Source: a virus. From it: a stretch of 36,032 nucleotides of DNA. Location of the stretch: positions 3,686 through 39,717 of IMG/VR virus record IMGVR_UViG_3300030106_007211; one strand, given 5' to 3'. Positions 3 through 25,200 of this stretch are shown here, piece after piece. The notes beneath the pieces are model-generated. The model was not told where the DNA came from. It ran no database searches and saw only the letters and a program-made list of their open reading frames with translations. The position numbers and the translations under genes were made by a program. Each line of letters begins with the position of its first letter. The first letter of the stretch is position 1.

Positions 3-62
3 CCTGTGGATGTGGATACAAAAGAGGACTTGAAAAAATACTATGACAAAAATAATCGCTGA
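3..62 (+). CDS. C-terminal fragment of a probable CMP-sugar cytidylyltransferase (NeuA-like)
   Basis: Only the last 19 residues are in the window. They end in a PVDVDTKEDL-type stretch, which resembles the IDIDTxEDL motif near the end of nucleotidyltransferases of the CMP-NeuAc/CMP-KDO synthetase group. The frame stays open from the window edge and stops at 60-62, overlapping the start of the neuB-like gene by 20 bases. A CMP-sugar synthetase is the expected partner of NeuB because it activates the nonulosonic acid that NeuB makes. A shorter open frame (2-46) reading CGCGYKRGLEKIL is the competing interpretation and would be a different protein tail. The call rests on a very short piece plus context. 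Confidence 0.45.
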   Translation, partial: PVDVDTKEDLKKYYDKNNR

Positions 63-861
63 AATTGGAATCAATCATAACGGTTCTATTAACATAGCCA
101 AAGATTTAATTGACTTATCAAAAGTCGCAGGCTGTGACTATGTGAAGTTCCAAAAGAGAACGCCCGATATTTGTGTTCCAGAAGAGCAAAAATCAAAAAT
201 GCGTGTAACACCTTGGGGTGAAATGGCGTATATTGATTACAAGAAAAGAATTGAGTTTGAAGAAGAACAATACGATCATCTTTTCGCTTATTGTAAAAAG
301 ATAGGGATCGGGTGTTTTGCTTCTGTCTGGGATAATCCTTCAGTTGACTTTATGACAAAGTATACCGATATTGCTAAAATCCCATCTGCCCTTATTACAA
401 ATCACAAGCTTTGCAGCTATGCCAGAAAAAAGAATGATTTTTTGATTGTATCGACAGGTATGAGCACTGAAGAAGAAGTAGAAAAAAATGTTGACATTTG
501 CAGTCCAGATGTTATAATGCATACAAACTCTTCGTACCCATCTAAAGTAGAGGAGCTTAACTTGAATTACATCAAGTGGCTTGCTGAAAAATATCCCGAC
601 GCTGCTATCGGATATAGCGGTCACGAGTACGGACTAGTCACAACCTTTGCAGCAGTTGCATTGGGTGCTACTTGGGTTGAGCGCCACATTACTCTTGACA
701 GAAATATGTGGGGCAGCGACCATAAATCCTCTATCGAGCCATCAGGCTTGATTAAACTTGTTAAAGGTATCCGTGATATTGAAAAGTCGTTTGGTAAGGG
801 TGGACCACGCGAAGTGTTAGGAAGTGAATTAGATAAGCGCAAGTCCCTACGAGGTAGTTAA
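43..861 (+). CDS. neuB: Short NeuB-family nonulosonate (sialic-acid-type) synthase
   Basis: The predicted reaction is condensation of phosphoenolpyruvate with an N-acetylated hexosamine to give a nine-carbon keto acid (sialic, legionaminic or pseudaminic type) in the cytoplasm. The TIM-barrel signature is complete: IAEIGINHNG at residues 5-14, VKFQKRTP near 34, a KIPS segment near 112, a SxYP...NL stretch near 180, GYSGHE near 204, and ERHITLDR followed by GSDHKSSIEP near 225-250. The protein is 272 residues, whereas usual NeuB is about 335-350. It stops at the SExxKRKSLRgS linker, where the C-terminal SAF (antifreeze-like) domain normally begins. An AGAGGA Shine-Dalgarno at 23-28 supports the start. 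The stop and the next start overlap by one base (TAATG). Which nonulosonate is made cannot be told. Confidence 0.88.
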   Translation: MTKIIAEIGINHNGSINIAKDLIDLSKVAGCDYVKFQKRTPDICVPEEQKSKMRVTPWGEMAYIDYKKRIEFEEEQYDHLFAYCKKIGIGCFASVWDNPSVDFMTKYTDIAKIPSALITNHKLCSYARKKNDFLIVSTGMSTEEEVEKNVDICSPDVIMHTNSSYPSKVEELNLNYIKWLAEKYPDAAIGYSGHEYGLVTTFAAVALGATWVERHITLDRNMWGSDHKSSIEPSGLIKLVKGIRDIEKSFGKGGPREVLGSELDKRKSLRGS

Positions 862-1166
862 TGATTGTATATGTTGATATTGATGAGACAATTTGTGACA
901 CCCCTGAAAGCAGAGATTATGGATTGTCAACGCCGATAAACGAAAGAATTAAAAAGATTAATGCGCTTTATGACAAGGGTCATACAATTATTTATTGGAC
1001 TGCCCGAGGCACGGGATCTGGAATTGACTGGAGAGAGACAACAGAAAGACAATTTAAAGATTGGGGTGTTAAGTATCACGAGCTAAGGCTTAAGAAGCCA
1101 ATTTACGATTTGTTTATTTGTGATAAAGCGATTCGCACAGAGGATTATTTTGAAACCAATGATTAG
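861..1166 (+). CDS. Small HAD-superfamily phosphatase of the capsule/LPS biosynthesis type
   Basis: The 101-residue protein starts with the HAD motif I, DIDET (D6, D8, T10), where D6 would be the nucleophile. It continues with a TAR motif II region (YWTARG near residues 45-50) and ends with KPIYDLFICDKA, a motif typical of compact HAD proteins in polysaccharide loci. There is no cap domain, which suggests a small phosphosugar substrate. It follows the NeuB-like gene with a one-base overlap. It could be the nonulosonate-9-phosphate phosphatase step or a phosphatase for another sugar in the operon; the sequence does not decide. The last 8 bases overlap the next gene. Confidence 0.75.
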   Translation: MIVYVDIDETICDTPESRDYGLSTPINERIKKINALYDKGHTIIYWTARGTGSGIDWRETTERQFKDWGVKYHELRLKKPIYDLFICDKAIRTEDYFETND

Positions 1167-2307
1167 ATTAGCAGAAAAAATTATAGATAATGAAGATATT
1201 TCAAGTCTCGTAGACTGGTTACAACAAAGTGATCGTTTCACAAAAGGTGAACAAACTTTAATGTTTGAAGCTGAGTGGTCTAAGTGGCTTGGCTGCAACT
1301 ATTCTGTTTTTGTTAATTCTGGTTCCTCCGCAAACTTGTTAGTAACACTTGCTCTTCTGTGTTCTGGTAGGCTTAGAAATAAAAAAGTAATTGTACCAGC
1401 AATTAGTTGGGTTACAACTGTATCCCCAGCGATGCAACTTGGAATGACACCTATTTTGTGTGACTCTGATAAGGATGATTTAGGACTTGATGTTGACCAC
1501 TTTGAGAAACTATGTGAAGAGCACAGACCATCTGTAGCTTTTCTTGTTCACGTTTTGGGGCATGCTAACAAAATGAAGCAGATAACTGAAATCTGCGAAA
1601 GATATGATGTTCTCTTAGTGGAAGATACCTGCGAGGCTTATGGAAGCGAACATCGAGGTCAAAAACTTGGAACATTTGGTATTGCCAGCACTCACTCTTT
1701 CTTTTATGGGCACGCTATGTCCACGATTGAAGGAGGAATGGTTAGCACCAACGATTATGATTTATTTAATTTGATGTTGTCACTTCGCTCTCACGGATGG
1801 TTGCGAGACAATGACGAATTATACAGACAAAAGATACTAGAAAAGTATGATATGAATGAGCCGTTTCTTGAAAATTACTTTTTTGTTTATCCAGGGCTCA
1901 ATATTCGTAATACAGATTTGAATGCTTTTATCGGTATTGGTCAAATGAAAAAAGTTAATGACTATGTAAGTAAACGAAATAAAAATTATAATTTGTATCT
2001 TAATAATCTGTCGGAGCATGTTTGGGTTCAACGGAGTGATACAGATCCTGTCTCGGCTCTTTCCTTTGGGCTGATTCACGAAAACAGAATGAAGATTGCT
2101 GATGCTCTAATAGAAAACAACATTGAATGCCGACCACTAATTTGTGGATCAATTCAAGAACATCCCTTTTGGTATACGAGGTATGACAAAGTTGATTTGC
2201 CTAATGCAACAAAAGTACACCAACTTGGACTTTATGTCCCTTGTCACCAGGCTATGACCGATGAGCAAGTTAATTTTATCAGCGATATTATTAAGGATAA
2301 TGTATAA
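1159..2307 (+). CDS. DegT/DnrJ/EryC1-fold PLP enzyme with His in place of the catalytic Lys; probable NDP-4-keto-6-deoxysugar 3-dehydratase (ColD/E1-like)
   Basis: The fold is the fold-type I sugar aminotransferase family: NSGSSANL near residue 53 (PLP phosphate and substrate binding), VEDTCEAYGS near 154 (the Asp that binds the PLP ring nitrogen), and an FFYGHAMSTIEGGM loop at 181-194. In aminotransferases this loop holds the Schiff-base Lys. Here the aligned residue is His185, as in E. coli ColD (His188) and Yersinia E1/RfbH, which remove the 3-hydroxyl of 4-keto-6-deoxy sugars instead of transaminating a C4 ketone. Usual ColD length is about 388; this protein has 382. ATG 1159 is preferred and overlaps the previous stop by 8 bases. 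TTG 1150 has better Shine-Dalgarno spacing, and the longest frame begins at GTG 1120. GDP-mannose dehydratase in the same operon fits a ColD-like substrate. Confidence 0.82.
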   Translation: MIRLAEKIIDNEDISSLVDWLQQSDRFTKGEQTLMFEAEWSKWLGCNYSVFVNSGSSANLLVTLALLCSGRLRNKKVIVPAISWVTTVSPAMQLGMTPILCDSDKDDLGLDVDHFEKLCEEHRPSVAFLVHVLGHANKMKQITEICERYDVLLVEDTCEAYGSEHRGQKLGTFGIASTHSFFYGHAMSTIEGGMVSTNDYDLFNLMLSLRSHGWLRDNDELYRQKILEKYDMNEPFLENYFFVYPGLNIRNTDLNAFIGIGQMKKVNDYVSKRNKNYNLYLNNLSEHVWVQRSDTDPVSALSFGLIHENRMKIADALIENNIECRPLICGSIQEHPFWYTRYDKVDLPNATKVHQLGLYVPCHQAMTDEQVNFISDIIKDNV

Positions 2308-3575
2308 TGGAGAAAAAAATGAAATGTAGAATCTCTGGCAAAGAAACTGTTGAAGTTTTTAACTTAGGCGATCTTCTGATGTCTGACTTTACGCCAGACG
2401 GAGAAAAGCCTCGCACAGGTCTCGGAGAGCTTAAAATGATGCTCTGTACTGAGTCTGGTCTCCTTCAGTTGGAAACAATCCTACCTCCTGAAGAAATGTA
2501 TGGAAAATACTGGTACAGGTCCGGTATTAATGATACAATGAAGCAGAAGCTAAAGGATGTCGCTGTGTCCTGTCTTGACTCCATTGATACAAAGGAAGGT
2601 GATGTATTTTTGGATATCGCCTGCAACGATGGTACTATGTTTGATTATGTTCCAGACTACATGATTAAGGTTGGAATTGACCCTGCTGACGATTCTTTTG
2701 TCGAAGAATCTTCCAAGAAAGCCAATGCTATCGTGCAAGATTTTTTTAGTGCTGAAGCATACAGGCGAACTGAGTACGCCCACCTGAAGCCCAAAATCAT
2801 TACCACAATCGCGATGTTTTATGATTTGGATGATCCACAACCTTTTGTAGATGACATCTACGATATCTTAGACGACGATGGCATCTGGGTTCTCCAACTG
2901 AGTTACACTCCCCTGATGCTAAAGCAGCTTGCTTTTGACAACATTTGTCATGAGCATATCTGTTACTATTCACTCAGTTCTATGAAGTATCTGATGGATC
3001 GTGCCGGATTTGATATTGTTGATTGTCAACTAAATGATGTTAATGGTGGAAGTTTTAGAATTTATTTGATGAAGAAGACTGCTAATAAAACCAAGTTTAG
3101 AAATCAACAAGAGCGAGATGTCGCAAACTTTAGAGTCAACGCTCTGCTTGAGTATGAAAAGTCACTTAAACTTAATGACCCTCAGACTTACATTGATTTT
3201 TATTCTGAGATCTGTAAGCTTCGTGATGACACGATGTCATTTATTAAGCAAGAGAAAGCTAAGGGCAAGAAGATTGCTGGCTATGGTGCCTCCACGAAGG
3301 GTAACACCCTATTGCAGTGGTATGGGCTGGATCACAATTATGTGGATTACATTGCAGAGCGCTCTGAATACAAATATGGTCTCAAGACAGCAGGAACCAA
3401 GATCCCGATTATTGCAGAGGCAGATATGAGAGCAGACCACCCCGATTATCTTATTATCTTGCCGTGGCACTTTATCAACGAGTTTGCCGAAAGAGAAACT
3501 GAATACATTGAGAAAGGCGGAAAGTTTATTGTTCCGTGTCCAAAGTTTCTTGTTTATCCTGACGAGGGCAAGTGA
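2307..3575 (+). CDS. Sugar C-methyltransferase (TylC3/TcaB9/NovU family)
   Basis: The family uses S-adenosylmethionine to methylate a carbon, usually C3, next to the 4-ketone of an NDP-6-deoxy sugar. Three domains are visible. Residues 1-60 form the N-terminal zinc-binding module, here with only C7 and C47; the paired positions are S10 and S50. A Rossmann SAM domain has FLDIACNDGT at 101-110 and the catalytic HEHICYYS at 215-222, followed by NGGSFRIY. The C-terminal domain has GYGASTKGNTLL at 325-336 and the GGKFIVPCP ending. The length of 422 is normal for the family. ATG 2307 overlaps the previous stop by one base and has AAGGA nine bases upstream; ATG 2319 behind GGAG is an alternative. 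GMD and a fucose-synthase-type reductase downstream make a GDP-4-keto-6-deoxymannose-derived substrate likely. Confidence 0.88.
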   Translation: MEKKMKCRISGKETVEVFNLGDLLMSDFTPDGEKPRTGLGELKMMLCTESGLLQLETILPPEEMYGKYWYRSGINDTMKQKLKDVAVSCLDSIDTKEGDVFLDIACNDGTMFDYVPDYMIKVGIDPADDSFVEESSKKANAIVQDFFSAEAYRRTEYAHLKPKIITTIAMFYDLDDPQPFVDDIYDILDDDGIWVLQLSYTPLMLKQLAFDNICHEHICYYSLSSMKYLMDRAGFDIVDCQLNDVNGGSFRIYLMKKTANKTKFRNQQERDVANFRVNALLEYEKSLKLNDPQTYIDFYSEICKLRDDTMSFIKQEKAKGKKIAGYGASTKGNTLLQWYGLDHNYVDYIAERSEYKYGLKTAGTKIPIIAEADMRADHPDYLIILPWHFINEFAERETEYIEKGGKFIVPCPKFLVYPDEGK

Positions 3576-4516
3576 TGAATTTATTAGATGTACAAGATAA
3601 ACTTCTCGTGACTGGTGGTACAGGAATGGTCGGAGTTGCCCTACAAAAAGTTCTGCCTGACGCAACTTATGTCGGTAGTAAATATGACTTGACCAGCTTT
3701 GATAGAACTATGGAGCTTTTTGAGGAAGTTAAGCCAGAGTATGTTGTTCATCTCGCAGCAAAGGTCAGCGGTATGAAAGGCAATATGGACGCACTTGGAA
3801 CACACTACACAGAGAATGTGTATATGAACACGAACGTATTGGAGGCAAGCAGGATTCACAATGTGACAAAGGTTCTCTCAGTTTTAAGCACTTGTGTGTA
3901 TCCAGAGTTTGCCAGACTGCCTTATGTCGAGGAAGACATTCACAAAGGCATGCCTCATTACACTAATATGGGCTATGGTTTTTCCAAACGAATGCTCGAT
4001 GTCCAAGCCCGAGCTTATCGCGATCAATACGGTAGTAACTTTGTTAATATTATCCCAAACAATCTTTTTGGAGAGAATGACAATTTTCACTTAGTTGAGA
4101 GCCATGTTATCCCGTCTGTTATCCGCAAGGTATACGAGGCAAAGAGAAACAACACAAACATTACATTGTGGGGCGATGGATCTCCTCAAAGAGAATTTAC
4201 ATATTCTAATGACTTAGCAGAGATTATTCTGTTTATGTTTAATAATTATGATGGTGCCGACCCTATCAATGTCGGAAATCCAGGCGAACACACAATCAAA
4301 GAACTCTGTGAGATAGTCTGTGAGTTCTTGGAGTATGAAAACGAAATCACTTGGGATACAAGTGTTAGCAATGGTCAACCAAGGAAGCCATCCGACAACA
4401 ACAAATTTTTGGAGTTGGGCTGGAGCAACGACCGCTACACTGATTTTAGAACAGCATTAAAAAACACTTGTGACTGGTTTGTTGAGAACTATGAAAATGT
4501 TAGAGGAGTAAGATGA
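3575..4516 (+). CDS. fcl: GDP-L-fucose synthase-type 3,5-epimerase/4-reductase (WcaG/ColC-like)
   Basis: This short-chain dehydrogenase-fold enzyme is predicted to epimerise and reduce a GDP-4-keto-6-deoxy sugar with NADPH. The nucleotide-binding loop TGGTGMVG is at residues 13-20. The catalytic set of E. coli fucose synthase is kept at an offset of two: S105, C107, Y134, K138 (YGFSK) and H177 (SHVIP). [17 protein letters not shown], typical of the family, follows near residue 194. The length of 313 is usual. ATG 3575 overlaps the previous TGA (TGATG) and has GAGGG six bases upstream; the in-frame GTG at 3572 is less likely. ColC of colitose biosynthesis is a homologue, so with the His-type dehydratase upstream the product could be a 3,6-dideoxy sugar rather than fucose. 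Confidence 0.9.
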
Positions 4517-5490
4517 AAACCGCACTAATCACTGGTATTACAGGACAAGACGGCTCTTATTTAGCAGAAATGTTATTAAAGAAGGGCTACAAAGTTGTAG
4601 GAGTTAAAAGAAGAACTTCTCTTATCTCTACAGATCGTATTGATAACATCTTTAATGACCCAGATTTAATTATGAATTTTGATCTGGTATACGGAAATAT
4701 GAACGACTCTGGCTGTCTTCACAGGTTGTTGATTGAACATCAGCCTGATGAGATTTACAATCTTGCTGCTCAGTCACATGTTCGTGTTTCTTTTGAAACA
4801 CCCGAGGAGACCACTGAGTTTGTTGCCATGGGTACACTTCGTTTGTTGGAGGCATATAAGAACATCTGCCCCAAGGCAAAGTTTTATCAAGCATCCTCGT
4901 CTGAAATGTTCGGTGACAACCCAGAGAATCCACAAAGCGAAACCACACGACTCATGCCCGCCAGCCCTTACGCTTGTGCGAAGGTATATGCTCATAATCT
5001 TTGTAGAAACTACAGAGAAAGTTATGGACTTCATATCTCCAGTGGTATCCTTTTTAATCACGAGTCTCCCCGTCGTGGAGAGACATTTGTTACCCGTAAA
5101 ATCACCCGTGCTGCTGCTCGTATAAAAATGGGGCTACAAGATGACCTTTTATTAGGTAACCTCGACGCAAAGCGAGACTGGGGCTTCGCAGGAGACTATG
5201 TGGAGGCAATGTGGTTAATGACACAACAAGAAACACCTGATGATTATGTCGTGGCTACTGGTGAGACCCACACAGTTAGAGAGTTTTTGCAAGTTGTCTT
5301 TGACTATGCTGGACTTGACATTGATAAATATGTTGAGATTGACGAGCGTCTTTTTAGACCTCATGAGGTTCCACTCTTACTTGGTGATGCTACTAAAGCA
5401 AAAGAAAAGCTTGGATGGGAACCAAAGGTAGACTTTGTAGGTCTTGCAAAGATGATGTATGATGAGGATCTGAAGGAACTAATTAAATGA
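4513..5490 (+). CDS. gmd: GDP-mannose 4,6-dehydratase
   Basis: The enzyme converts GDP-D-mannose to GDP-4-keto-6-deoxy-D-mannose, the branch-point intermediate for fucose, colitose, perosamine and related sugars. The sequence shows [15 protein letters not shown] at residues 8-22 (NADP-binding GxxGxxG), [12 protein letters not shown] near 84, the SSSEMFG active-site segment at 128-134, the Tyr-Lys pair Y153/K157 in SPYACAK, and [16 protein letters not shown], a GMD signature. The length of 325 is slightly shorter than E. coli Gmd but complete. The start overlaps the preceding gene in ATGA, behind an AGAGGAG Shine-Dalgarno, so the two genes are translationally coupled. The stop overlaps the cupin gene in the same way. 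Confidence 0.96.
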
Positions 5491-5816
5491 GAAGAGTAGA
5501 AAAGCCTTGGGGCTATGAAATCATTTGGGCAGAGACAGCAAACTATGTAGGAAAAATTCTTCATATTAATGCTGGTCACCGACTTTCCAAACAATATCAC
5601 AATGTTAAAGAAGAAACACTCTATGTTTTAGCTGGCACACTATGTAATTACGCTGATTCTGGTGAGATCCAGAGGTTTCACCCTGGTGAAGTATTTCACG
5701 TTGAACCTGGACAGATACACCGATTCGGCGCTCTTGAAAATAATGTAGAGGTAGTCGAGGTTAGCACACCACATTTAGATGATGTGGTTAGGTTAGATGA
5801 CGATTACACACGATAA
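5487..5816 (+). CDS. Single-domain cupin, mannose-6-phosphate isomerase type II (ManC C-terminal domain-like)
   Basis: The 109-residue protein is a stand-alone version of the cupin that forms the C-terminal isomerase half of ManC/AlgA. It starts with VEKPWGYE, then GHRLSKQYH near residue 30 with a metal-ligand His, an ETLYVLAG strand, the second cupin motif [15 protein letters not shown] near 66-80, and the ending [17 protein letters not shown]. The likely role is interconversion of fructose-6-phosphate and mannose-6-phosphate, feeding GDP-mannose to Gmd encoded just upstream, or a related sugar epimerase/isomerase step. It starts inside the gmd stop (ATGA) and is the last gene of the sugar operon; a 47-base gap follows. 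Confidence 0.85.
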
Positions 5817-6632: not shown

Positions 6633-7322
6633 ATGCCAAGAAAGCGGAAAGCCGGTAAGCACTACTTTACCAAAGACCACGAAAATGCAATTATTGAATA
6701 TGTTGCCACCGATGACCAAAAGGTAAGAACTCAACTTTACGTTGATTGGATAGGTCCAGCCTTTGACGAGATGGTGGATAAAATTGTATACACTTATAAA
6801 TTTACTACTCTCCCAAACATCGACGCTCTCAAAGACGAATGTAAGGTTTGGCTGACAACAATTCTTGATAAGTATGACCCAAGCAAGGGATCAAAAGCAT
6901 TCTCGTATTTTTCAGTCATCACGAAAAACTGGTTTATTCACAAAGTAAAGAAAAACGCCAAGCGAGCCCGAACCGAGGTTCTGTATGATGAGATGCCAAA
7001 AGAAGTTGATAATGAACTTGTCATAACCTCTAATCCCTATCATGCAGACCGTGAAGAATTAGAGTTCTGGAAGTCATTATGGGCGGAGATTGAATCTTGG
7101 GACACGGGTAATTTAAAAGAAAACGAAAAAAAGGTTCTTGAAGCAATTAAGATTTTACTTGATTCTATCGATGAAGATAAGATGATTTATAATAAAAAAG
7201 CAATCTACTTGTATCTTCGTGAGATAACTGGTCTCAACACGAAGCAGATTGTTAACAACCTCAACAAGCTCCGTGTAAAATACCGGATTTTTAAGAAAAA
7301 TTGGGTTAACGGCAAAATATAA
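6633..7322 (+). CDS. 55: T4 gp55-like RNA polymerase sigma factor for late transcription
   Basis: The protein looks like the minimal sigma factors of T4-type phages, which combine with host core RNA polymerase to read short late promoters. Residues 40-115 resemble sigma region 2: a helical block with DKYDPSKGSKAFSYFSVITK and WFIHKVKKNAKRAR, comparable to the T4 gp55 stretch around its HAYITQACFNAFVQRIKK. The C-terminal 90 residues are helical and basic at the end, with LREITGLNTKQIVNNLNKLR resembling a helix-turn-helix. It is longer (229) than T4 gp55 (185). It lies immediately upstream of the baseplate module it would be expected to transcribe. The Shine-Dalgarno is weak (AGAAGAA), so translation may depend on the preceding gene. 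Confidence 0.8.
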   Translation: MPRKRKAGKHYFTKDHENAIIEYVATDDQKVRTQLYVDWIGPAFDEMVDKIVYTYKFTTLPNIDALKDECKVWLTTILDKYDPSKGSKAFSYFSVITKNWFIHKVKKNAKRARTEVLYDEMPKEVDNELVITSNPYHADREELEFWKSLWAEIESWDTGNLKENEKKVLEAIKILLDSIDEDKMIYNKKAIYLYLREITGLNTKQIVNNLNKLRVKYRIFKKNWVNGKI

Positions 7323-7649: not shown

Positions 7650-9152
7650 ATGTTTGAAACACACCAAGAAAGACAGGCTCGTGAAGAACGAGAAGAACAA
7701 GAGCGAGTATTGAATGAAAACATTCAGTACGCTGCTTTTTTTGATGCCTTGCAAGAGATTTTTGGCAACGCACAGGAGCTTGTCCCTGGAGATTTTGAAG
7801 ACACTGAAGTGCAAACAAGTAAGTTTAATAACATACTTGAAAATGGAAAATTAAAAAATCTTCAAAAGAAAATCGCTGCTCATCAAGGAAAGCCGTTAAT
7901 TGGCTTATATGCAATGATCATGCAGAAGAAAGAGGTAACTCAGGGTGATAATCCTCTACCAGCACCACATGGAGGTAAATCTGCTTGGGGACGAGCACTC
8001 GGTGCCCTTCGTGCTGCTCCAGGTGCCATAGTAGAAGGCAGCAGATCTCTCAACTCTGGTATTGTTGATCTTCTTTCAGGAGGACAAGAAAACTCTATTG
8101 ATAATCAACGCAGTGAGGCGTTGAACCTTTTAAATTTTCCTGAATATTATGTTTACATTTTTTCAAATATTGGTGACAATACTCCACCACCAACATTACT
8201 CGAAGAAAGAAACACGCCCCTTGACCCAGGACAAAGCCGTGGCAATAGAATTATCGGTAGAAACTTTACTAATTTAGAAGCTTATCAAGAGGCTATTGTA
8301 ACCTCAAAGGCGATGAGGGATGAGGAGGATATTGCCCCAGGATCAATTGTAAGAATATCGTATGAAAGTCCAGATACAAAAAGCAAAGTTATTATCAATG
8401 AAGTTGTTGAAAATGACCCACAATTTGTTGAGTTGGTTCTACGCTCACTTGGTGCCAAATCTGCTCTAACTGCTGAAACTGCCTGTGCCACTGATTCGAC
8501 TTTTCGTAACACACAACACCCAACTGGTGACCCAATTGGAACTTTGAGCGATGTATTAACTAAAACAAATATAGGTGGCAATAACACTATTGCTTATCCA
8601 TTTAAAGAAAATGCTGAGGTTAACTTAGTTGTAATTTTACACGGGACATCTCCTTATCCTCGTAACGCTGGTGGAAGAACCGGACAGGAAATTATTTTAA
8701 GTATAGTTAAAGAATTTGATATAACAAGCACAATGTTTTTAATACCAAGAGGTACTGATCTAGGTATTTTTCAATGGTCTGCTATTGAACAAGCGATAGA
8801 CGACCTTACCAATCAGGGAATAACAATTAGTAGTAAAAGGCTTGCTGCTTGGAGTAATGGTGCTTATGGCTTTGTTAATTCTATTGAGGGTGCAGGTCTT
8901 TCTTATTGGGATCGCGGAGTTTTCTTAGCAGATCCGACACCATCCCCAAGGAGTATTTGGGGAACTGACTTTACAAAAGTACCCAGCGGAGTTTATATGG
9001 AATATAATCCAGCGAATTGGGGCTCACAACAACTCCGTGATGATTTCCCAAGTATGGTTGAGAAAATTACATCAACTGGTGGTCAAGCAATATTAAAAGA
9101 AGAGAGTCATTCTGCTATTTTAAAGTCCATATTAAACAAACTAAATACTTAG
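7650..9152 (+). CDS. Baseplate hub-like protein fused to a C-terminal alpha/beta-hydrolase-like domain
   Basis: Two parts are visible. Residues 1-270 look structural: a charged helical N-terminus, then a segment near 228-265 (IAPGSIVRISYE...VVENDPQFVELV) resembling the OB-fold region of phage baseplate hub/gp5-type proteins. Residues 320-500 look like a serine hydrolase: VVILHGT (327-333) as the oxyanion strand, AAWSNGAYGF with nucleophile S402 in a G/A-x-S-x-G elbow, an Asp in FLADPT near 428, and ESHSAI with H487 as the catalytic His. The likely role is a virion-borne envelope enzyme (esterase, deacetylase or peptidase) acting during infection. T4 gp5 has a lysozyme domain in its hub; here a different enzyme would take that place. 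GGAG at 7635 serves the start. Confidence 0.65.
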   Translation: MFETHQERQAREEREEQERVLNENIQYAAFFDALQEIFGNAQELVPGDFEDTEVQTSKFNNILENGKLKNLQKKIAAHQGKPLIGLYAMIMQKKEVTQGDNPLPAPHGGKSAWGRALGALRAAPGAIVEGSRSLNSGIVDLLSGGQENSIDNQRSEALNLLNFPEYYVYIFSNIGDNTPPPTLLEERNTPLDPGQSRGNRIIGRNFTNLEAYQEAIVTSKAMRDEEDIAPGSIVRISYESPDTKSKVIINEVVENDPQFVELVLRSLGAKSALTAETACATDSTFRNTQHPTGDPIGTLSDVLTKTNIGGNNTIAYPFKENAEVNLVVILHGTSPYPRNAGGRTGQEIILSIVKEFDITSTMFLIPRGTDLGIFQWSAIEQAIDDLTNQGITISSKRLAAWSNGAYGFVNSIEGAGLSYWDRGVFLADPTPSPRSIWGTDFTKVPSGVYMEYNPANWGSQQLRDDFPSMVEKITSTGGQAILKEESHSAILKSILNKLNT

Positions 9153-9171
9153 TGTATTAGAGAAATATCTT

Positions 9172-9996
9172 ATGTCACAATTACCTTGTCCACAAAATAA
9201 TCCAACAGAGGGATCCCCAACAACAATAGACGATATCTGTGAAGACCCCTCTTTTTTAGATGCCGGAGGTCCAGGCGGTGCAGCGGGAGGTGTCTATCAA
9301 AATATTCCTGACGGTGAGGTTATACAAAATGTACAAGACACTTATGTCGGTGGCGACATAACTGGTACTATTTCTGAATTTGTTGTTTTTAATGGTAAAA
9401 TAATACCAAAAGAAATTGCAGTGTACTTAAGACCTATGATTCAAGCAGCCGCTGCTGAAGGTGTAACACTTCAAGTAACAAGTGGTTTCCGAACATATGC
9501 AGAGCAAGAAAAACTAAAAAGGGACGATCCTCACAATGCAGCCTACGCAGGATACTCTCCACATCAAAGGGGATTTGCTGTTGATATGAATACACGAGGT
9601 CCAGGTCAGTATGAATGGCTGGTTAAAAACGCTTATCGCTATGGTTTTGTTCGGACTGTTACTCGCGAACGATGGCACTGGGAATATCGAGGAAATTGGC
9701 CAGGACAAGAAAAACCAGTCTGGGCTTCATCTGAATATAGATGGTATCCAGCATCTCAATTTTCTATCGTTAAGAGAAATCACCGTTGTGGCGTAGCCGA
9801 TGCTAATGGAGGTTCTAAAAATATGTCCGAAAGCACTCGCTGGGGTGGGAATCTTGGCAACCGTCATCCAGATCGCAAGCAACTAGGATATGCCAATACT
9901 TGGGTTGGTTTGGATGGAGAACATTTACCCGACAAATTTGATCGAGAAGATCCCGGTTGGGACCAAAGAGGTCCGGCACCATTACCACCAACATAA
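9172..9996 (+). CDS. VanY-type D-alanyl-D-alanine carboxypeptidase (peptidase M15) in the baseplate module
   Basis: The zinc peptidase core is complete. VTSGFRTYAEQ is at residues 102-112. SPHQRGFAVDMN at 129-140 gives zinc ligands H131 and D138, and ERWHWEY at 166-172 gives catalytic E166 and zinc ligand H169. This is the M15B/VanY pattern, which cuts the peptide stems of peptidoglycan. The first 70 residues are Gly/Pro-rich without a signal peptide, and the last 85 residues are an unassigned Trp/Arg-rich extension. It lies between the hub-like hydrolase and the spike-like protein, so it is more likely a virion-associated wall-penetration enzyme than a lysis endolysin, although an endolysin cannot be excluded. 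The Shine-Dalgarno is weak (AGAGA). Confidence 0.85.
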   Translation: MSQLPCPQNNPTEGSPTTIDDICEDPSFLDAGGPGGAAGGVYQNIPDGEVIQNVQDTYVGGDITGTISEFVVFNGKIIPKEIAVYLRPMIQAAAAEGVTLQVTSGFRTYAEQEKLKRDDPHNAAYAGYSPHQRGFAVDMNTRGPGQYEWLVKNAYRYGFVRTVTRERWHWEYRGNWPGQEKPVWASSEYRWYPASQFSIVKRNHRCGVADANGGSKNMSESTRWGGNLGNRHPDRKQLGYANTWVGLDGEHLPDKFDREDPGWDQRGPAPLPPT

Positions 9997-15587: not shown

Positions 15588-15989
15588 GTGCCCGGTTTAT
15601 CACCAAAACTACCATTATCCATAGATGAAGTTGATGGATTTGCTACCACTAAAAATTTTCAACAGGTAGCAAGACAAAATCTTAAAATGATTGTTCTGAC
15701 CAACCCTGGCGAGAGAGTTATGATTCCGGGCTTTGGAGTTGGTCTTAGAACTTACATCTTTGAAAATGCAAGTAACTCTCTTTTTGAAACCATTAGACAG
15801 AAAATAAGAGAACAGGTGGCACTTTATGCTCCATATGTTTCTATAAGATCGATTCAGTTCTCACAAGAAAAAACAGACTTCAATTTTGTTGAACTTGATC
15901 CGTCCAGTGAATCAAACTTTGTAGGCATTACAATTAACTACTCTATTCCAAAAGCATTTATTTCTGATACTTTAGTGTTGGAAATTTAG
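15588..15989 (+). CDS. 25: Baseplate wedge protein gp25
   Basis: The 133-residue protein has the length of T4 gp25 (132) and the family pattern: a conserved N-terminal stretch leading to NFQQVARQNLKMIVLTNPGER (near residues 21-41), PGFGVGLRTYIFE, then a helix FETIRQKIREQVALYAPYV and strands typical of the gp25/lysozyme-like sheath-initiator fold shared with P2 GpW and type VI TssE. It caps the baseplate wedge where sheath assembly starts. The start is GTG at 15588, preceded by AAGAGGAG nine bases upstream; the frame has a TGA codon directly before it, so no earlier start is possible. Adjacency to gp6 is the conserved wedge order. Confidence 0.93.
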   Translation: MPGLSPKLPLSIDEVDGFATTKNFQQVARQNLKMIVLTNPGERVMIPGFGVGLRTYIFENASNSLFETIRQKIREQVALYAPYVSIRSIQFSQEKTDFNFVELDPSSESNFVGITINYSIPKAFISDTLVLEI

Positions 15990-16025: not shown

Positions 16026-17828
16026 GTGGCAGATAAAAGACAAAATGTCAAAGTAAACTATCTCAGTAGAGATTTTACCTCAATCAAAAATCAGCTTGTT
16101 GAACATGCCAGAAGGTATTACCCAGAGACATTTAGAGACTTCTCTGACGCTGGCTTTGGCGCATTAATGGTTGATGCTGTCTCTTATGTTGGTGATCTTT
16201 TATCTTTTTACCTTGATTATCAAGCAAATGAGAGCTTTTTATCAACTGCCATAGAATACAACAATATTATCAAACACGGAGACGCTGTTGGTTTCAAATA
16301 TGATAATGTTCGCGCCACTTATGGACAGGTAAACTTATACATCAAAGTTCCTGTAAATTCTTCAAACACAGGACCAGATTTAGCATATGCTCCAAAACTT
16401 AGAGCAGGGAGCACATTTTCAGCAACAAATGGTTCTTTGTTTACGCTGTTAGAGGATGTTGATTTTGCTGATGCAACAAATGAAACTGTTGTTGCAACCA
16501 CAAATTCTTCAACTGGTGTACCCGTTGAATATGCTATTAAAACAATTGGACAAGTTGTTTCTGGTGAATTGAGAGAAAGAACATTTGAGATTGGTAATTT
16601 CGCAAGATTTACCACCCTAACTCTCGAAGACGCAAATGTCACAGAGATAATTTCTATTTTTGATTCATCAGGTAAACAATATTATGAGGTAGAACACTTA
16701 TCTCAAAACACAATTTATGTTCCTGTAGTAAATAATGATGCAACAACAAATGTTCAGGCACCTACGATTATTAAACCTTTTATTGTCCCAAGAAGATTTG
16801 TTAGAAAAAGACTTGCCGGAAGCACGCAGATTATATTCGGATACGGCTCAGATTCTCAACTTGATTCGCCAAGTTTAGCGGAGGCACGAGACTTGGTTTT
16901 GAACCTTCACTCCAAAACATATGTAACAGATCAAGCAATGGATCCCACGATCTTAATTAAAGGTGATAAGTTTGGTGTTGGTCCCTCCAATACTACCTTG
17001 ACTGTATCTTATCGTGCCAATACACAGCAGAATTCTAACGCTTCCGCAGGTAGTGTCAATAAAATAACTAATACATCATTTCAGTTTGCTAATCCAGATA
17101 CACTTATTTCCACAACATCAGCGACAGTGCGTCGGTCTCTTGAGGTGATAAATCCAAGCCCTATTCAAGGGGATGTGTCCGCACCTACAACCAGAGAATT
17201 AAGAGAATTAATATCTGGAGCACACTCCGCGCAAAATCGCGCTGTTACTGTCGAAGATTTTAAAACACTTGTTCTTTCTATGCCCGCTAAATTTGGCGGG
17301 ATCAAGCGATGTGCTGTTATTCAAGATGTTGACTCTAATTTGAGAAACATTAACATCTATGTTGTAAATCAAAACAACAATGGATTTTTTGAACAAACAA
17401 ACACAATTTTAAAAGAAAATATTAAAACTTGGCTAAACACCAAGCGTATGATTAACGATTCAATTGATATCTTAGACGCAAAAGTTGTTAACTTAGCTAT
17501 TAGGTTCTCTGCAATTGCCACTAATGATGAAAATAAAAGTGCTGTATTTGGCAGAGTACAGCGAAGAATGAATACTTATTTTAGTGAAAAACTTGATATT
17601 GGTGAATCTTTTAGTATTACAGAGCTATATTCCTTGATTAACGCCACACCAGGAATTATTGATGCCACATTTGTTCAAGTATTTCAACAAACTGGTCCTG
17701 GCTATGCGACAACAAAATTTAATGTAAAAAACAACACCACACCAGATGGAAGAATGATAATTGCACCAAAAAATGTTGTTTTCGAAGTTAGATATCCTTC
17801 AAGAGATATTAAGGGGACAATTAGATAA
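16026..17828 (+). CDS. 6: Baseplate wedge protein gp6 (baseplate J family)
   Basis: The N-terminus has the gp6 signature: YLSRDFTSIKNQLVEHARRY, then PETFRDFSDAGFGALMVDAV, YVGDLLSFYLDYQANESFL and HGDAVGFKYDNVRATYGQ within the first 105 residues. The C-terminal half contains TRELRELISGAHSAQNRAVT and DFKTLVLSMPAKFGGIKRC, the conserved J-like core with a VNIYVVNQN-like strand. The length of 600 compares with 660 for T4 gp6. Two copies per wedge form the inner baseplate ring in contractile tails. The start is GTG at 16026, ten bases after AGGAGA. The stop overlaps the next gene by one base. Confidence 0.93.
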   Translation: MADKRQNVKVNYLSRDFTSIKNQLVEHARRYYPETFRDFSDAGFGALMVDAVSYVGDLLSFYLDYQANESFLSTAIEYNNIIKHGDAVGFKYDNVRATYGQVNLYIKVPVNSSNTGPDLAYAPKLRAGSTFSATNGSLFTLLEDVDFADATNETVVATTNSSTGVPVEYAIKTIGQVVSGELRERTFEIGNFARFTTLTLEDANVTEIISIFDSSGKQYYEVEHLSQNTIYVPVVNNDATTNVQAPTIIKPFIVPRRFVRKRLAGSTQIIFGYGSDSQLDSPSLAEARDLVLNLHSKTYVTDQAMDPTILIKGDKFGVGPSNTTLTVSYRANTQQNSNASAGSVNKITNTSFQFANPDTLISTTSATVRRSLEVINPSPIQGDVSAPTTRELRELISGAHSAQNRAVTVEDFKTLVLSMPAKFGGIKRCAVIQDVDSNLRNINIYVVNQNNNGFFEQTNTILKENIKTWLNTKRMINDSIDILDAKVVNLAIRFSAIATNDENKSAVFGRVQRRMNTYFSEKLDIGESFSITELYSLINATPGIIDATFVQVFQQTGPGYATTKFNVKNNTTPDGRMIIAPKNVVFEVRYPSRDIKGTIR

Positions 17829-19295: not shown

Positions 19296-22200
19296 ATGTC
19301 CATAAAGGATCTTTTTGACAGAAGTTCACAAGTGATTGTATCCTCAAGTCTTGAAAAAATAGCAGAGGGTATTGAATCTCCTGAATACATCATAGAGTAT
19401 AATGAAGATGTAGTTCGCGTTGAGCCACATATTGATTTTAGTGATCCAGCAAATTTCTCTAAATACGGTTCGGCAGAGGAATATTATTTAAGATCTCTTG
19501 AATACATTTATGATGAGTATCCTTACGATGGTTCACTCAAAGAAAGATTAGAGTGGAAAAAAGAAGCAACACTGCTTGATCTTTATATTTTAGATAGTAA
19601 ATACCCAAAGTCAACAGGGTACGCTGTATTTGCAAGTGATGGCTGGGGCACATTGGCAGGCAGTATCGTTAATGGATATGGACAACCTGCAAGTAGTAAC
19701 TACGAATATATTAATATCAAAGGTGGACCAAATTCATCTTTTGGTTCCTCACTTGGCACTGCCTCATTAGCTGATGTATTCGATACAAAATCAAACATTT
19801 TTGATGAAACAGTTACAGGGTCCAGCGGACCAGTCTCCGCTCAGAGAACGACAAATCTCCAAACTAATTTAGATCGTGGTGTTACAGTTGAGTTTTGGCT
19901 AAAAACTGGGTCTTTAGATACAGCATTAACAGAAAAACAGGTCGTTTTTGATCTTTGGAATGGTCAGGCATCTTCCAGCGCTGATTATGGACGATTAAGA
20001 ATTGAACTTGATGGCACTCGTGCATCCTCTCCTTTTATGGTCACGGTTTTATCGGGTACGGTTGGTTTAAGCACATCCTCTGTTGAGATTGGTTCTACAT
20101 TAAATTTAAACTCATTCTCTGATTGGCAACACTATGCGTTTAGTTTTGTTAACAGTGGCACCGACATTGAGACAAAATTATATGTTAATGGAGCATTAAC
20201 TGAGACAATAACAACTGGTTCAAATATTGGCGAGATTCGTGAAGATTTAGAAGCAAATATTGGAGCTTTGGTTACAGGCACATTTAACCCTTCAGGTGAG
20301 GCGTTTGCAAATTTAGGTTCTGGTAAGCTCTCCGGCTCTCTTGATGAATTCCGTTTTTGGAAAACAAGAAGAACTGAAAAGCAAATCAAAAGAAACTACT
20401 TTACAAGTGATCTTGGTGGAGGCACAAACACTGATACAGCCAACCTTGATTTAGGTGTTTATTTTAAATTTAACGAAGGAATTACGACCGATGCGACAAC
20501 TGATAGTGTTGTACTTGATTATTCTGGTCGTATCTCTAACGGAACGTGGACAGGCTATCCAAGCTCTAATGCTCGAAATACAGGGTCAGCAATCAACTCT
20601 GCTTCAGCAGGGACAGAAGAACTTGATGTGATTGTCCGCCGCAATCATCCAGATGTCTATAATTTGCGAGCAGAGTTACAAGAATCTGGATCTCTCTGGG
20701 ACAATACAAATAATTCATCTTTGTTTTTCTCACTTCCATCTTGGATTATTGAAGAAGATGAGGGCAACGGAACAACTGGAAACATTAAAAAATTAACACA
20801 GATAATGTCAAGTTACCTTGATGATCTTGACTTGTTGATTGGTGAATTGCCCAAGTTCAACATGGCTTCTTATCCAAGCAGTAGTGTAAGTCTTGACGGA
20901 CAACCAGATAAACTACATAAACTTTATCCGTATGCAAAAAGAGCCGTTGACTCTTATGGTCTTGGGGCACCAGAATTATTTTCAAATGGTCAGTTTTTAG
21001 AATATTACAGAAATCGTAATGAGACAAAAGAGTTTGAAGAAGAATTATACACAGTAAAAAATGTTATCTATAACAATATTTTCAACAACTTAACTGACAT
21101 TTATAAAGCTAAGGGAACTGAAAAATCTTTTAGAAATCTTATCAGATGTTTTGGTATTGGTGATGATGTTATTAGAATTAATGCTTATTCGGACAATAGC
21201 GTATATAAATTTGACACGAAGCGCCGATCCGACAGTGTTCGCTCAAAAGCAATCAATCTAAATCATATTGATAATTTTGCTGGCACTGTATATCAATACG
21301 CCGATTCTTCAAACGCAAACAGTGTATCACACATTTCAGGTTCTGGTCGAGAGGGCTTGACTCTTGAAGACGGATTTCCGATGACCTTGGAGGCAGAGGT
21401 TGTCTTCCCCGAAAAGATCTCAAGGCGTTTAGAAAATTCATACACCCAGGAGTATCCATATTTAACAGCATCATTGTTTGGTATGCACCAGGCACGAGCA
21501 AACTCTCCAACAGAAACAGATTTAACTTGGGCAGCTACCGACAACGCTAACTTTCAAGTTTTTGCAATCCGAAACGAAACACAAGCTTCAGATGTTAAGT
21601 TTATGCTTTCATCATCGGTTCCGTTCCCAATTCCAGAGCTTACAAGTTCTCAATATTACAATGTTTATGAGAATCAAAAGTGGAATTTTGCCGTAAGAAT
21701 TAAGCCCTTGGGATATCCCCAATCTTTTGCTAGCGGGGCTGTAGACAACAACTATGTGCTTGAATTTTATGGTGTAAACTACATTGCCGACAGAAAAATT
21801 AATGAGTTTACAATTACGGGCTCAATTGGCAAGCAGGCAGCAGAAAACCTGCTAATTTCTCCGAAACGTATCTTTGTTGGTTCCCACAAGACAAACTTCA
21901 CTGGTTCGACACTTCATTATAGTGATGCCAAGATCACATCTTGCCGCTATTGGTTTGATTATATTGATAATGAGACAATGCGAACACATGCGATTGATCC
22001 TGATAACTTTGGACTTTTAAGACCAGGCAGAGACACTTATATTAAAGAGTCGGATCTTGCAAGTGTCCAAGTTCCAGAGATTGAGTCACTTGCTCTTTAC
22101 TGGGACTTCCAAACCGTTACAGGCTCTGACAATGGTAGCGGCTCCCCAGCGACTTTTGATGGTAAGTTCGTTGTAGAGGATGTGACTTCAGGTTCCCTTG

Positions 22201-25200
22201 GTCTGATTGGCAGATACAACTGGCTTGGCAAGATCCTTAAGTATCAGCACACTGGTCGTGGTGATGCTTTCCCAATTAACTCAACAGGTTCAGTAGAAAA
22301 TCTATTTTTGTACTCTGGAAGGCAGCAGCTTCCCGAGGTCGTATTTGGTGATGATAATATTCGCGTATTAAACCGCGAGGAGACTGAGGTCTTTACAAAG
22401 GAAACAAGACCAGTAAAAACATACTATGCTTTTGAAAAAAGTATGTATCAAGTCATCTCTGATGAAATTATTAATTATTTTGGCTCTATAGCAGAGTTTA
22501 ATAATTTAGTTGGTGAGCCTGTTCACAGATATCGACAAAGCTATAAGAGTATGGAATATTTGCGTCAATTCTTTTTTGAGAGAGTTGGCAACACTCCAGA
22601 TTTAGATAAGTTTATTGAGTTCTATAAATGGATTGATTCAACTCTTGAGACAATGTTGATGCAACTTGTTCCTGCTTCTGCACAGGTAAGTGATGGTATT
22701 GATAATATTGTTGAAAGCCATATTTTGGAAAGAAACAAATATTGGTCCAAGTTTCCTACAATGGAGTTTTCCGCCTCTGCACCTGAAGGCGGCGTTGTTA
22801 CAATTAACAGACATCTTTATGATTGGGAGCACGGACACAGACCAATCTCCGGGCTACAGTCAGACAATTGTTTTTATTGGAAAGAACGTGCCGAAAGAGA
22901 TGACGATCCGATTAGCAGCGGCGATACTGGAGTTGACGCAGACAGAAATAGTATTTTAGATGTATCTTTACAAGTTTTAAATCGCAAGTTCAACACGCCT
23001 TATCGTTTTGGTGTTGTTAAAAGACGCCAACTTCACGGTGGTATAAACTATTCCGAAAATAAGAAGACAAACTTTTATCGTGGAGTTAACTATCCTCATG
23101 GACCTGTGTCCGCTCTTGGGCTTCCACTTAATGAGCTTAACGCTTATAATGTGAATGTCACATTGCTAAAGGATTGTGATGATGATCTCGTCCCACCAGA
23201 ATTGCAAAAGAAAAAATACTCTTTTGGAACAAGAAATGGTAGAACTTATGACTCTGGCTCATTTGATGGCGTCAAGGGCGAAATTGCTATGCCATTTAAT
23301 ATTTTGTCTGCGTCATCCAATATCGGTGGATACAATGAAGGTGTACAAGCCAACTTCTTAGCGAACTCACAACTTGTTAATCTTCACTCTGACGCATATG
23401 GAGATAGAAATGAAACTCCAATGCAAGGTCCGTTTACCGAAAAGTATGTTGGAGGTCACCAGCATAGACATGTTAGAATCAATAACTTCGATGCCAATCG
23501 CATTGGTGGCGATGGTGCTGCTGGACCAAACAATCTGGATGGGCAATTTACCCGTCCAGAGGCTTGGAGACTTCTTCTTGGTGGTGGTCCTGCTGGACTG
23601 GGAGCTATTGGTCTGACTGGTCCTGATTATGGCGGTCCTTACCCAGATCCAACACGACAACGTGCTTGGTGGTGGCGAGAAGAGACGGCAAAGCGTCCTG
23701 TTAATATTCGAAATATTTTACAAACAACTGCCTCAGCGGACACTGTACTTTCAGGTACGCTTCAGTTTGGAGCGATTGGAAACTACGAAAAGACTTATCA
23801 AGTTGTCCAGACCTCTGGTCGTAGTACAAACAACTTCTGGTTTAATGACGGACAGACTGATTTGTTACCTGATAGGTTCAAAACAAATAATCCTAAAACA
23901 ACAAACGTTCATACTTTAATTGGTGTAAGACCATTCTATGCAGGATCAAATCGTGGAAACACTTTCTTGCCTGGTGCCGGTGCAGATGATGCAACAGCTA
24001 TAACCAGAACAGCAAGAAGTCTGAGTAACCGCTATGAGCCTTTTCAAAATGCTGTTACATCTAACAGAACTGTGTTTAGATTACCAGACAGAACTAAGCA
24101 GGATGCCGTTATTGTTGAGCGCTTCTCTTCTCCAGGCGGACCAGAGATTAACTCTCTTGGCTTCCTTGATGTTATTGCAGCAGAAAAATCTGTTTATAAT
24201 GCACTACCGTTCAGAAATCTTTCTGTCAGAGGCTCTGGGTCTGGCGAAGATCCAAACGTTTTAATTTCTGGTAGTTCTATAAGAGTATCAGATCACTTAG
24301 GTCATCGCCGTGGACTTCGCACTCTTGCTGCACTCCATGCTGGACAATTTGGTGCTGATGCGACCTATGGATCAATTGTGGCGAGCACATACAACACTTC
24401 TCCATCGTTTTACAAGATCAACAGAAACACAGGATTTAAGATAGACGGAGTTCCTGGCACACCTGGCTCATCTTATTCGACAGCATCGGTTCGCGATAAC
24501 TTCTATATTCAGCACCCAATCCCACAGAATGACAAACAATATTCTTGGATTACTGCGTCAATTTCAAATACAGGATCTTTCTTTGGTCATGCTCCAAGAT
24601 CAGGTCTTGTTTCTGGGTCTACCGCCTTTCAGCCCGCTATAAACTTCTTATCAGCATCGGAAATTGTTACAAATACAGGTGATGGTTCGCCCAGTTTTAT
24701 TGATTTTGTTGGAACAAATGCAACAATATTTGAGACAACTTCTTCATTTAATCTTTTAACGTCTTCCGACAATAGTGCTGCCGATAACTTGTTTGCTTAT
24801 ACTGTGAAACCATTTGGGACTCAAACTGATGCGCCTGGTGGCACTTTTACTGGTACACCTTTTACAAGAAACAAAAATAATATTTTCAATGCGCTTATGC
24901 TTCATCGAAATGGTCCTTACGGGTATTCATCATGGAGACAAATCAGTAATAGATATCACCCAATTGTTCGTCAAATGCGTGTAAACAATTCAATTTCAAT
25001 TATTGATCCTGATACTGAAAGAGATTCGCTCTTAAAAGCACAAGGTAAATATCGAGGATATGAGTGGGATGGTGCTAAACAAAATAGTTCTGACATTTTT
25101 GGTTACACCAGTAAGGGCACTTCCACCTTCCGTTTAACGCAAGATCGAGCAATATTAGAATTTGCAGAGCCAGTTGTAACGACCGGGTATAAGCCATTAG

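Follow-up and report, generated by a model that had tools for sequence, protein, structure and literature searches.

The gene at positions 7650-9152 (+) of the viral DNA analysed here (the window; 36,032 nucleotides, part of a virus record of 45,781 bases) encodes a protein of 500 amino acids with two separable parts, an N-terminal part of about residues 1-304 (the carrier) and a C-terminal domain of residues 305-500. The data support the view that the C-terminus of the carrier is an exchangeable enzyme slot, which in the window holds a domain that is modelled as an alpha/beta-hydrolase whose closest solved folds are mostly esterases. From this we infer, with a probability of about 0.68, a virion-borne tail-tip serine esterase that is drawn from the slot and used in entry, a proposal that extends to its location, activity, substrate and timing. 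The ORF begins with ATG and lies within a run of genes on the same strand (Table 1). Related loci are designated by L numbers.

Table 1. Features of the hub-like gene and its surroundings (positions in the window)
Feature	Position	Strand	Evidence or remark
Late-sigma-factor-like gene	6633..7322	+	PHROG 234 'late sigma transcription factor', E 4.7e-6; before the baseplate block
Small conserved gene, 94 aa	7360..7644	+	directly upstream of the hub-like gene; 97% identical in L001
N-terminal carrier part, aa 1-304 of the hub-like protein	7650..8561	+	
Carrier end HPTGDPIGT, aa 290-298	8517..8543	+	cargo switches afterwards
C-terminal domain, aa 305-500, predicted alpha/beta-hydrolase	8562..9149	+	AlphaFold2 model, fold searches, six relatives
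Ser402 codon, predicted nucleophile	8853..8855	+	turn from strand 392-401 to the next helix
Asp428 codon, predicted acid	8931..8933	+	directly past strand 424-427
His487 codon, predicted base	9108..9110	+	four residues past the end of strand 479-482
VanY-type D,D-carboxypeptidase-like gene, 274 aa	9172..9996	+	Pfam VanY, E 1.3e-13
Spike-like gene, 308 aa	10021..10947	+	role assigned from position only
Baseplate wedge gene ('gp25-like', label given here)	15588..15989	+	PHROG 261 'baseplate wedge subunit', E 1.9e-15
Baseplate wedge gene ('gp6-like', label given here)	16026..17828	+	PHROG 219 'baseplate wedge subunit', E 1.1e-12

The slot was surveyed in a set of 81 contigs, consisting of the window and the best 80 of the 267 relatives that the spike-like gene has among viral contigs. 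The carrier was found in 16 of the 81 at E<1e-4, and four weaker matches (L099, L101, L124 and L132, E 1.9e-4 to 5.2e-3) were excluded from the 16. Six carriers have the hydrolase in the slot (the window, L073 (=L010), L015, L075 (=L011), L094 and the triad-less L074), one has an M23 peptidase (L083, E 2.5e-18) and one a lysozyme-like domain (L081, Phage_lysozyme2, E 2.9e-5, although its 24.7 bits fall below the Pfam cut-off of 28.2). The slot domains of another two (L082 and L093) have no Pfam match at E<=1; by eye, the C-terminal domains of these two genes (L082:675-1955 and L093:2208-3569), of about 200 aa each, look lysozyme-like. The other six are bare (L071 (=L001), L072 (=L002), L077, L078, L079 and L080) and represent fewer than six independent cases, since in the spike tree L071 is identical to L072, and L079 to L080. 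With six of the 16 carriers bare and one more triad-less, some lineages can do without the enzyme, a point that counts against the favoured reading.

The exchange can be seen between close relatives. The carriers of L082 and L083 are 84% identical and the two are sisters in the spike tree (100/100), yet their slot domains differ. Similarly, the carrier of the window is 89% identical to those of L001 and L002 (near-identical to each other), yet the window has the hydrolase and the L001/L002 protein ends without it, seven residues past HPTGDPIGT. In L010 and L015 carrier and hydrolase are joined at the same junction, with domains 69% and 62% identical to that of the window, and L011 has both parts at 27-30% identity. 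The earlier note had treated residues 1-280 and 315-500 as separate units, which comes close to the observed boundary, as relatives end or switch soon after residues 290-298. A search of the 10 records with a hydrolase-free carrier (L071, L072, L077-L083 and L093) revealed the domain nowhere else in them, and those of L074, L075, L094 and L153 yielded no second copy; in both sets the records may be fragments.

A chance extension of the ORF, or an assembly artefact that fused a hydrolase gene to a hub gene, could be argued from the 89%-identical L001 and L002, which are without the domain. Such an origin is very improbable, because independent contigs with the same fusion contradict it: L010 and L015 have it at the same junction, and L094 and L011 have it too. 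It is also at odds with the Nei-Gojobori dN/dS of the C-terminal domain, which is 0.27 for window-L010, 0.42 for window-L015 and 0.20 for L010-L015; being below 1 in the three pairs computed, these values support a protein that is in use. For carrier residues 192-304 the same pairs give, in that order, 0.35, 0.19 and 0.05, so across the three pairs the C-terminal domain is not consistently more constrained than the carrier.

At the level of sequence families, searches with the C-terminal domain remained empty. The whole window protein matches zero Pfam families up to E 10, with neither a lysozyme nor a GDSL match; the five of seven C-terminal domains scanned against Pfam (including that of L153) gave no meaningful or esterase-family match, and against NCBIfam the best match of all seven was to an unrelated model (E 0.046), with no esterase family. 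Profiles of the domain gave only noise against PDB sequences. No relative was found in the viral-contig scan with the window's domain alone, nor, within contigs matching chosen peptide patterns, in genome-contig scans with three- and five-sequence alignments; tblastn with four domains (window, L011, L153 and L094) gave no significant match in the phage collection. The missing family match counts against the favoured reading. Weak matches to the domain occur in Streptomyces and Klebsiella phages (E 0.1 and above).

The structure of the domain was modelled with AlphaFold2 from an alignment of seven sequences, namely the window's and six relatives with 21-72% identity to it. The model used (m1c731e761904) has a pLDDT of 86.7 and a pTM of 0.88; the five models range in pLDDT from 77.6 to 86.7 and are weak around residues 335-344 and 435-444. 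A prediction from the single sequence reached a pLDDT of only 42.6, and the seven-sequence alignment was thus needed for a usable model. Strands are predicted at residues 313-316, 323-330, 361-365, 392-401, 424-427, 448-452 and 479-482 with helices between them, that is, in the alternating strand/helix order of alpha/beta-hydrolases.

Structure comparisons of this model agree with the fold suggested in the earlier note. Foldseek returned 135 matches in the PDB at E<=0.001, with PET hydrolases, esterases, a member of a carboxylesterase/phospholipase family and a small number of peptidases in the top ranks. With VIA-align, 933 of 1000 aligned chains scored Z>=8; the best was 3wyd (Z 14.0, rmsd 3.0 A, 166 residues), and many esterases, esterase D, S-formylglutathione hydrolases, feruloyl esterases and EstA follow at Z of about 13 to 13.8. 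Rows less than 1 Z apart count as tied, so that no single closest enzyme can be named. The top 50 also include lipases, poly-hydroxybutyrate depolymerase and mycobacterial antigen 85 (Z 12.5-12.8, with many ties), and the fold therefore cannot pick the substrate. In BFVD, an uncharacterised protein from an uncultured phage ranks first (A0A6J5PV24), at E 2.9e-5 and with a TM of 0.64 when scaled by query length.

The HGT strand and the WSNGA elbow with S402, as well as D428 and H487, all stand in the translation at the residues that had been named for them. In the model the predicted triad residues lie at the turns expected of them, following strands 5, 6 and 8 (numbering assigned here). When the S, D, E, H, C, T, K, R and Y residues of the window's domain were screened for those kept in at least six of the seven domains, five were obtained, Y316 and Y452 (both 7/7) together with S402, D428 and H487. 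The last three are the only catalytic-type residues among them, and the motif is thus more than a chance occurrence. In L074, whose domain is 33% identical, the three columns hold E, E and P, so that all three residues are lost. From the aligned sequences the triad is read as one catalytic unit, retained or given up as a whole, with L074 as the single case of loss. L074:1802-3340 is a natural version with the triad replaced, presumably inactive.

The same L074 domain, devoid of any triad residue, and the six carriers without a C-terminal domain would also suit a structural or binding role, in which the hydrolase fold persists without any need for catalysis, for instance as a plug, adhesin or carrier. 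Such a role is quite improbable, since the triad is kept in six of seven domains while most other columns vary, including in L153 with only 21% identity to the window's domain. In a fold used for binding alone, one would hardly expect conservation of S, D and H to the exclusion of all other residues of catalytic type.

For the preferred catalytic reading, some details of the predicted active site are atypical. A strict GxSxG is absent in the window (A-W-S-N-G) and is found, as GWSAG, only in L094 of the seven; the predicted acid follows strand 6, whereas its usual position in alpha/beta-hydrolases is after strand 7. Both points count against the favoured reading. The superfamily tolerates departures from GxSxG, and the modelled fold, not this motif, is treated here as decisive for membership. 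The HG of the putative oxyanion site (H331-G332 in the window) is also variable, being NG in L011 and PG in L074 and L153.

The domain is not confined to the carrier. In L153 (contig 3300009158_000151) it opens a protein of 1296 aa (profile E 7e-14), which continues with a stretch of the endolysin family (PHROG 181, E 2.7e-17) and ends in a VanY domain (E 2.4e-12); within the 9.3 kb examined there is neither a carrier nor a spike-like gene. Together with the carrier fusion, this means that the hydrolase domain occurs in two different protein backgrounds. Both are set among tail or baseplate genes, the gene that precedes the L153 protein having tail-sheath and baseplate-wedge PHROG matches (E 6.9e-8 and 3.4e-6), and both have VanY adjacent, encoded by the downstream gene in the case of the carrier and forming part of the protein itself in L153.

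Homologues of wedge and sigma-factor genes lie near the window's gene, which therefore sits in a baseplate block. Specifically, Flavobacterium phage immuto and Microcystis phage Mel-JY01 each have a homologue of the late-sigma-like gene, a few genes ahead of their baseplate wedge genes. Both phages also have homologues of the first wedge gene, and the second matches them across 99% of its length (tblastn E 5e-71 with immuto). A gene of similar size to the 94-residue one occupies the equivalent place in many related loci, and the VanY-type product aligns with the gene downstream of the carrier in seven other loci. The window protein has no match by blastp or phmmer to the genes of immuto and Mel-JY01 around the equivalent place, and profile comparisons with their genes there were not significant. 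For the spike-like gene, the best PDB sequence match (E 0.048) is not meaningful and the phage collection holds no match at E<=1; its lineage is large and seemingly barely represented among named phages.

This setting, in a baseplate region and ahead of the VanY-type, spike-like and two wedge genes, is in line with the earlier suggestion that the N-terminal part is hub-like, but homology to T4 gp5, the baseplate hub subunit and tail lysozyme, did not emerge. The carrier profile has no significant match to gp5 (a single gp5 sequence), nor has the spike-like gene, and a wider hub-family profile aligns to gp5 residues 8-36 with a probability of 1% and an E of 0.054, again with one gp5 sequence. 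Since gp5 homology is not demonstrable, 'hub-like' refers to position only; this result and the missing match to the immuto and Mel-JY01 genes weigh against the favoured reading. The proposed plan is nevertheless the same, with an enzyme on a protein of the baseplate centre and wedge genes nearby. Indeed, the analogy to the lysozyme-bearing T4 hub, already drawn on first inspection, is strengthened by relatives whose slot holds an M23 peptidase or, below the Pfam cut-off, the lysozyme-like domain of L081. The two systems differ in that gp5 carries a lysozyme, whereas the window's cargo is a predicted serine hydrolase and its spike-like part is a separate gene.

Tail-tip enzymes are known mostly as wall glycosidases, peptidases or amidases, and the earlier note did not recall a fusion such as the present one being described. 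This holds for the fold, as no alpha/beta-hydrolase in a phage hub appears among the open-access matches listed, but not for tail-tip esterase-class domains in general. The Tal proteins gp59 of phage 80alpha and gp44 of phage phi11 are described as combining a gp27-like N-terminal part with a C-terminal SGNH/GDSL hydrolase, for which a role in wall degradation is proposed and activity is not established (PMC7048315, PMC4876445). Elsewhere phi11 Gp44 is listed as an endopeptidase and as 'lipase or esterase' (PMC5380687). The likeness lies in a tail-tip protein with an esterase-class C-terminal domain, and the difference in an SGNH/GDSL fold of staphylococcal siphophages as opposed to a classical alpha/beta-hydrolase model next to contractile-type wedge genes. 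SGNH/GDSL enzymes have a GDS(L) nucleophile near the start of the domain, whereas the window's predicted nucleophile is mid-domain and Pfam finds no GDSL family. Tail proteins with an esterase-class domain are thus already known, and what is new here is a fold different from that of 80alpha and phi11 and the evident exchangeability.

Other lipid or glycan esterases offer partial parallels. Virion lipases are predicted in Cellulophaga and Pseudomonas phages and are described as experimentally unproven (PMC5380687); the parallel, drawn from that description, lies in a lipid-ester hydrolase predicted in a virion, and a hub slot is not stated. Type VI alpha/beta-hydrolase lipase effectors, likened here by their description, follow the same principle of a serine hydrolase delivered via a contractile tip, but they are a bacterial weapon with an immunity protein (PMC11470151). 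Carbohydrate esterase family 1 and feruloyl and acetyl esterases align with the model at Z of about 12.4 to 13.5 over at least 170 residues (VIA-align), although the window's domain is only about 7-13% identical to these rows, much shorter and without a family match.

In the favoured reading, the carrier would be a tail-tip protein, hub- or spike-associated, whose exchangeable slot is filled here by a compact Ser-Asp-His alpha/beta-hydrolase. During entry the carrier would keep the enzyme at the tip, where it may cut ester bonds of the host envelope, the likeliest targets being acyl groups attached to its glycans (candidates are O-acetyl groups of peptidoglycan or of a surface polysaccharide), jointly with the VanY-type peptidase encoded next door. 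A function in entry is proposed because of the position and company of the gene. Least secure in this reading is the class of substrate, for which glycan O-acyl groups have somewhat less than an even chance, and lipids and other substrates are each rather unlikely, equally so. The lean towards glycans comes from the small size of the domain, from the many small-acyl and carbohydrate esterases among its nearest folds and from neighbours that act on the wall.

Instead, the domain might be a phospholipase or lipase that hydrolyses membrane or LPS lipids for passage of the tail through the outer or inner membrane. A precedent exists in a type VI alpha/beta-hydrolase lipase effector, such effectors travelling either inside the tube or on the VgrG tip (PMC11470151). 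The second-ranked Foldseek match (4f21) belongs to a carboxylesterase/phospholipase family, and the lipases among the top 50 VIA-align rows point the same way. Against this, the domain has only 196 aa and its model shows no extended insertion from which a lid might form (a structural argument that we infer from the model), small-acyl and carbohydrate esterases make up most of the highest VIA-align rows, with many ties, and wall hydrolases occupy the same slot in relatives; a lipase is therefore unlikely. Somewhat less likely again is a preference for another bond, as in a peptidase, thioesterase or protein deacylase, or the processing of a tail protein of the phage itself. Bond type is not set by fold alone, and DPP IV and acylaminoacyl-peptidase structures are found among the Foldseek matches, but esterase entries dominate the top VIA-align rows and neither Pfam nor NCBIfam gives a sequence link to peptidase families.

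More distant genes occupy the same position. Their N-terminal parts align with the window's carrier with an hhalign probability of 96.6% (E 6e-10, 111 columns, 19 N-terminal parts against 13). Among 52 such proteins from 48 loci, Pfam at E<=0.001, with several families per protein possible, gave VanY in 11, Amidase_2 in nine, M23 in three, SLT, Muramidase and CHAP in two each, and Peptidase_M15_4, Phage_lysozyme, GDSL lipase, Phage_lysozyme2, Peptidase_M74 and GH19 in one each. Except for GDSL, these families attack the cell wall or glycans of the chitin type. The single GDSL match comes from L100 (L100:2744-4366), which has an M23 peptidase in the same protein and scores 29.2 bits for GDSL, below the Pfam cut-off of 32.9. 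An FGDS motif occurs in L095, L108 and L110, which have no GDSL Pfam match at E<=1.

A wider proposal, plausible but doubtful, is that, in a large lineage of phages with no match in the named-phage collection, the gene ahead of the spike serves generally as a payload bay, in which the enzyme is swapped among close relatives at one fixed junction and the compact serine alpha/beta-hydrolases, a family as yet without a name, are one payload. Some contractile-tailed phages would then open the envelope via ester bonds, either in place of the wall's glycan or peptide bonds or besides them. That close relatives have wall-cutting enzymes or nothing at this place does suggest an exchangeable tool bay for breaking into bacteria. 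The natural series of slot contents (hydrolase, inactivated hydrolase, M23, lysozyme-like and bare) (i) makes the function of the slot directly testable and (ii) lets one ask if esters in the envelope stand in the way of infection. The short domain, which has no sequence family, could in addition seed a new family model.

The direction and mode of the exchange leave some traces. When the window, L010 and L015 are compared pairwise, divergence at third positions is lower in the C-terminal domain than in the flanks for each of the three pairs (permutation p 0.14, 0.046 and 0.032, for pairs that share sequences), which as a sign of recombination is only a hint. The bare L071 and L072 group with the window in the carrier tree (100/99) and with L073 and L015 in the spike tree (87/89, below the starred level), where the window falls outside. 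Gene mixing between lineages is possible, and loss of the domain in the L001/L002 line is a guess. By eye, short similar stretches of the AACTAA type lie near both ends of the domain (window 8526-8580 and 9116-9190), and the junction in L001 (L001:1261-1330) holds a similar one; such stretches might aid deletion or insertion.

Elsewhere in the window, the tail block includes one ORF of 3223 aa (19296-28967). Ahead of the tail genes, positions 43-5816 hold an apparent nucleotide-sugar or surface-glycan gene cluster, with genes named by eye as NeuB-like, aminotransferase-like, methyltransferase-like, epimerase-like and GDP-mannose-dehydratase-like, and L011 also has some genes that resemble this cluster.
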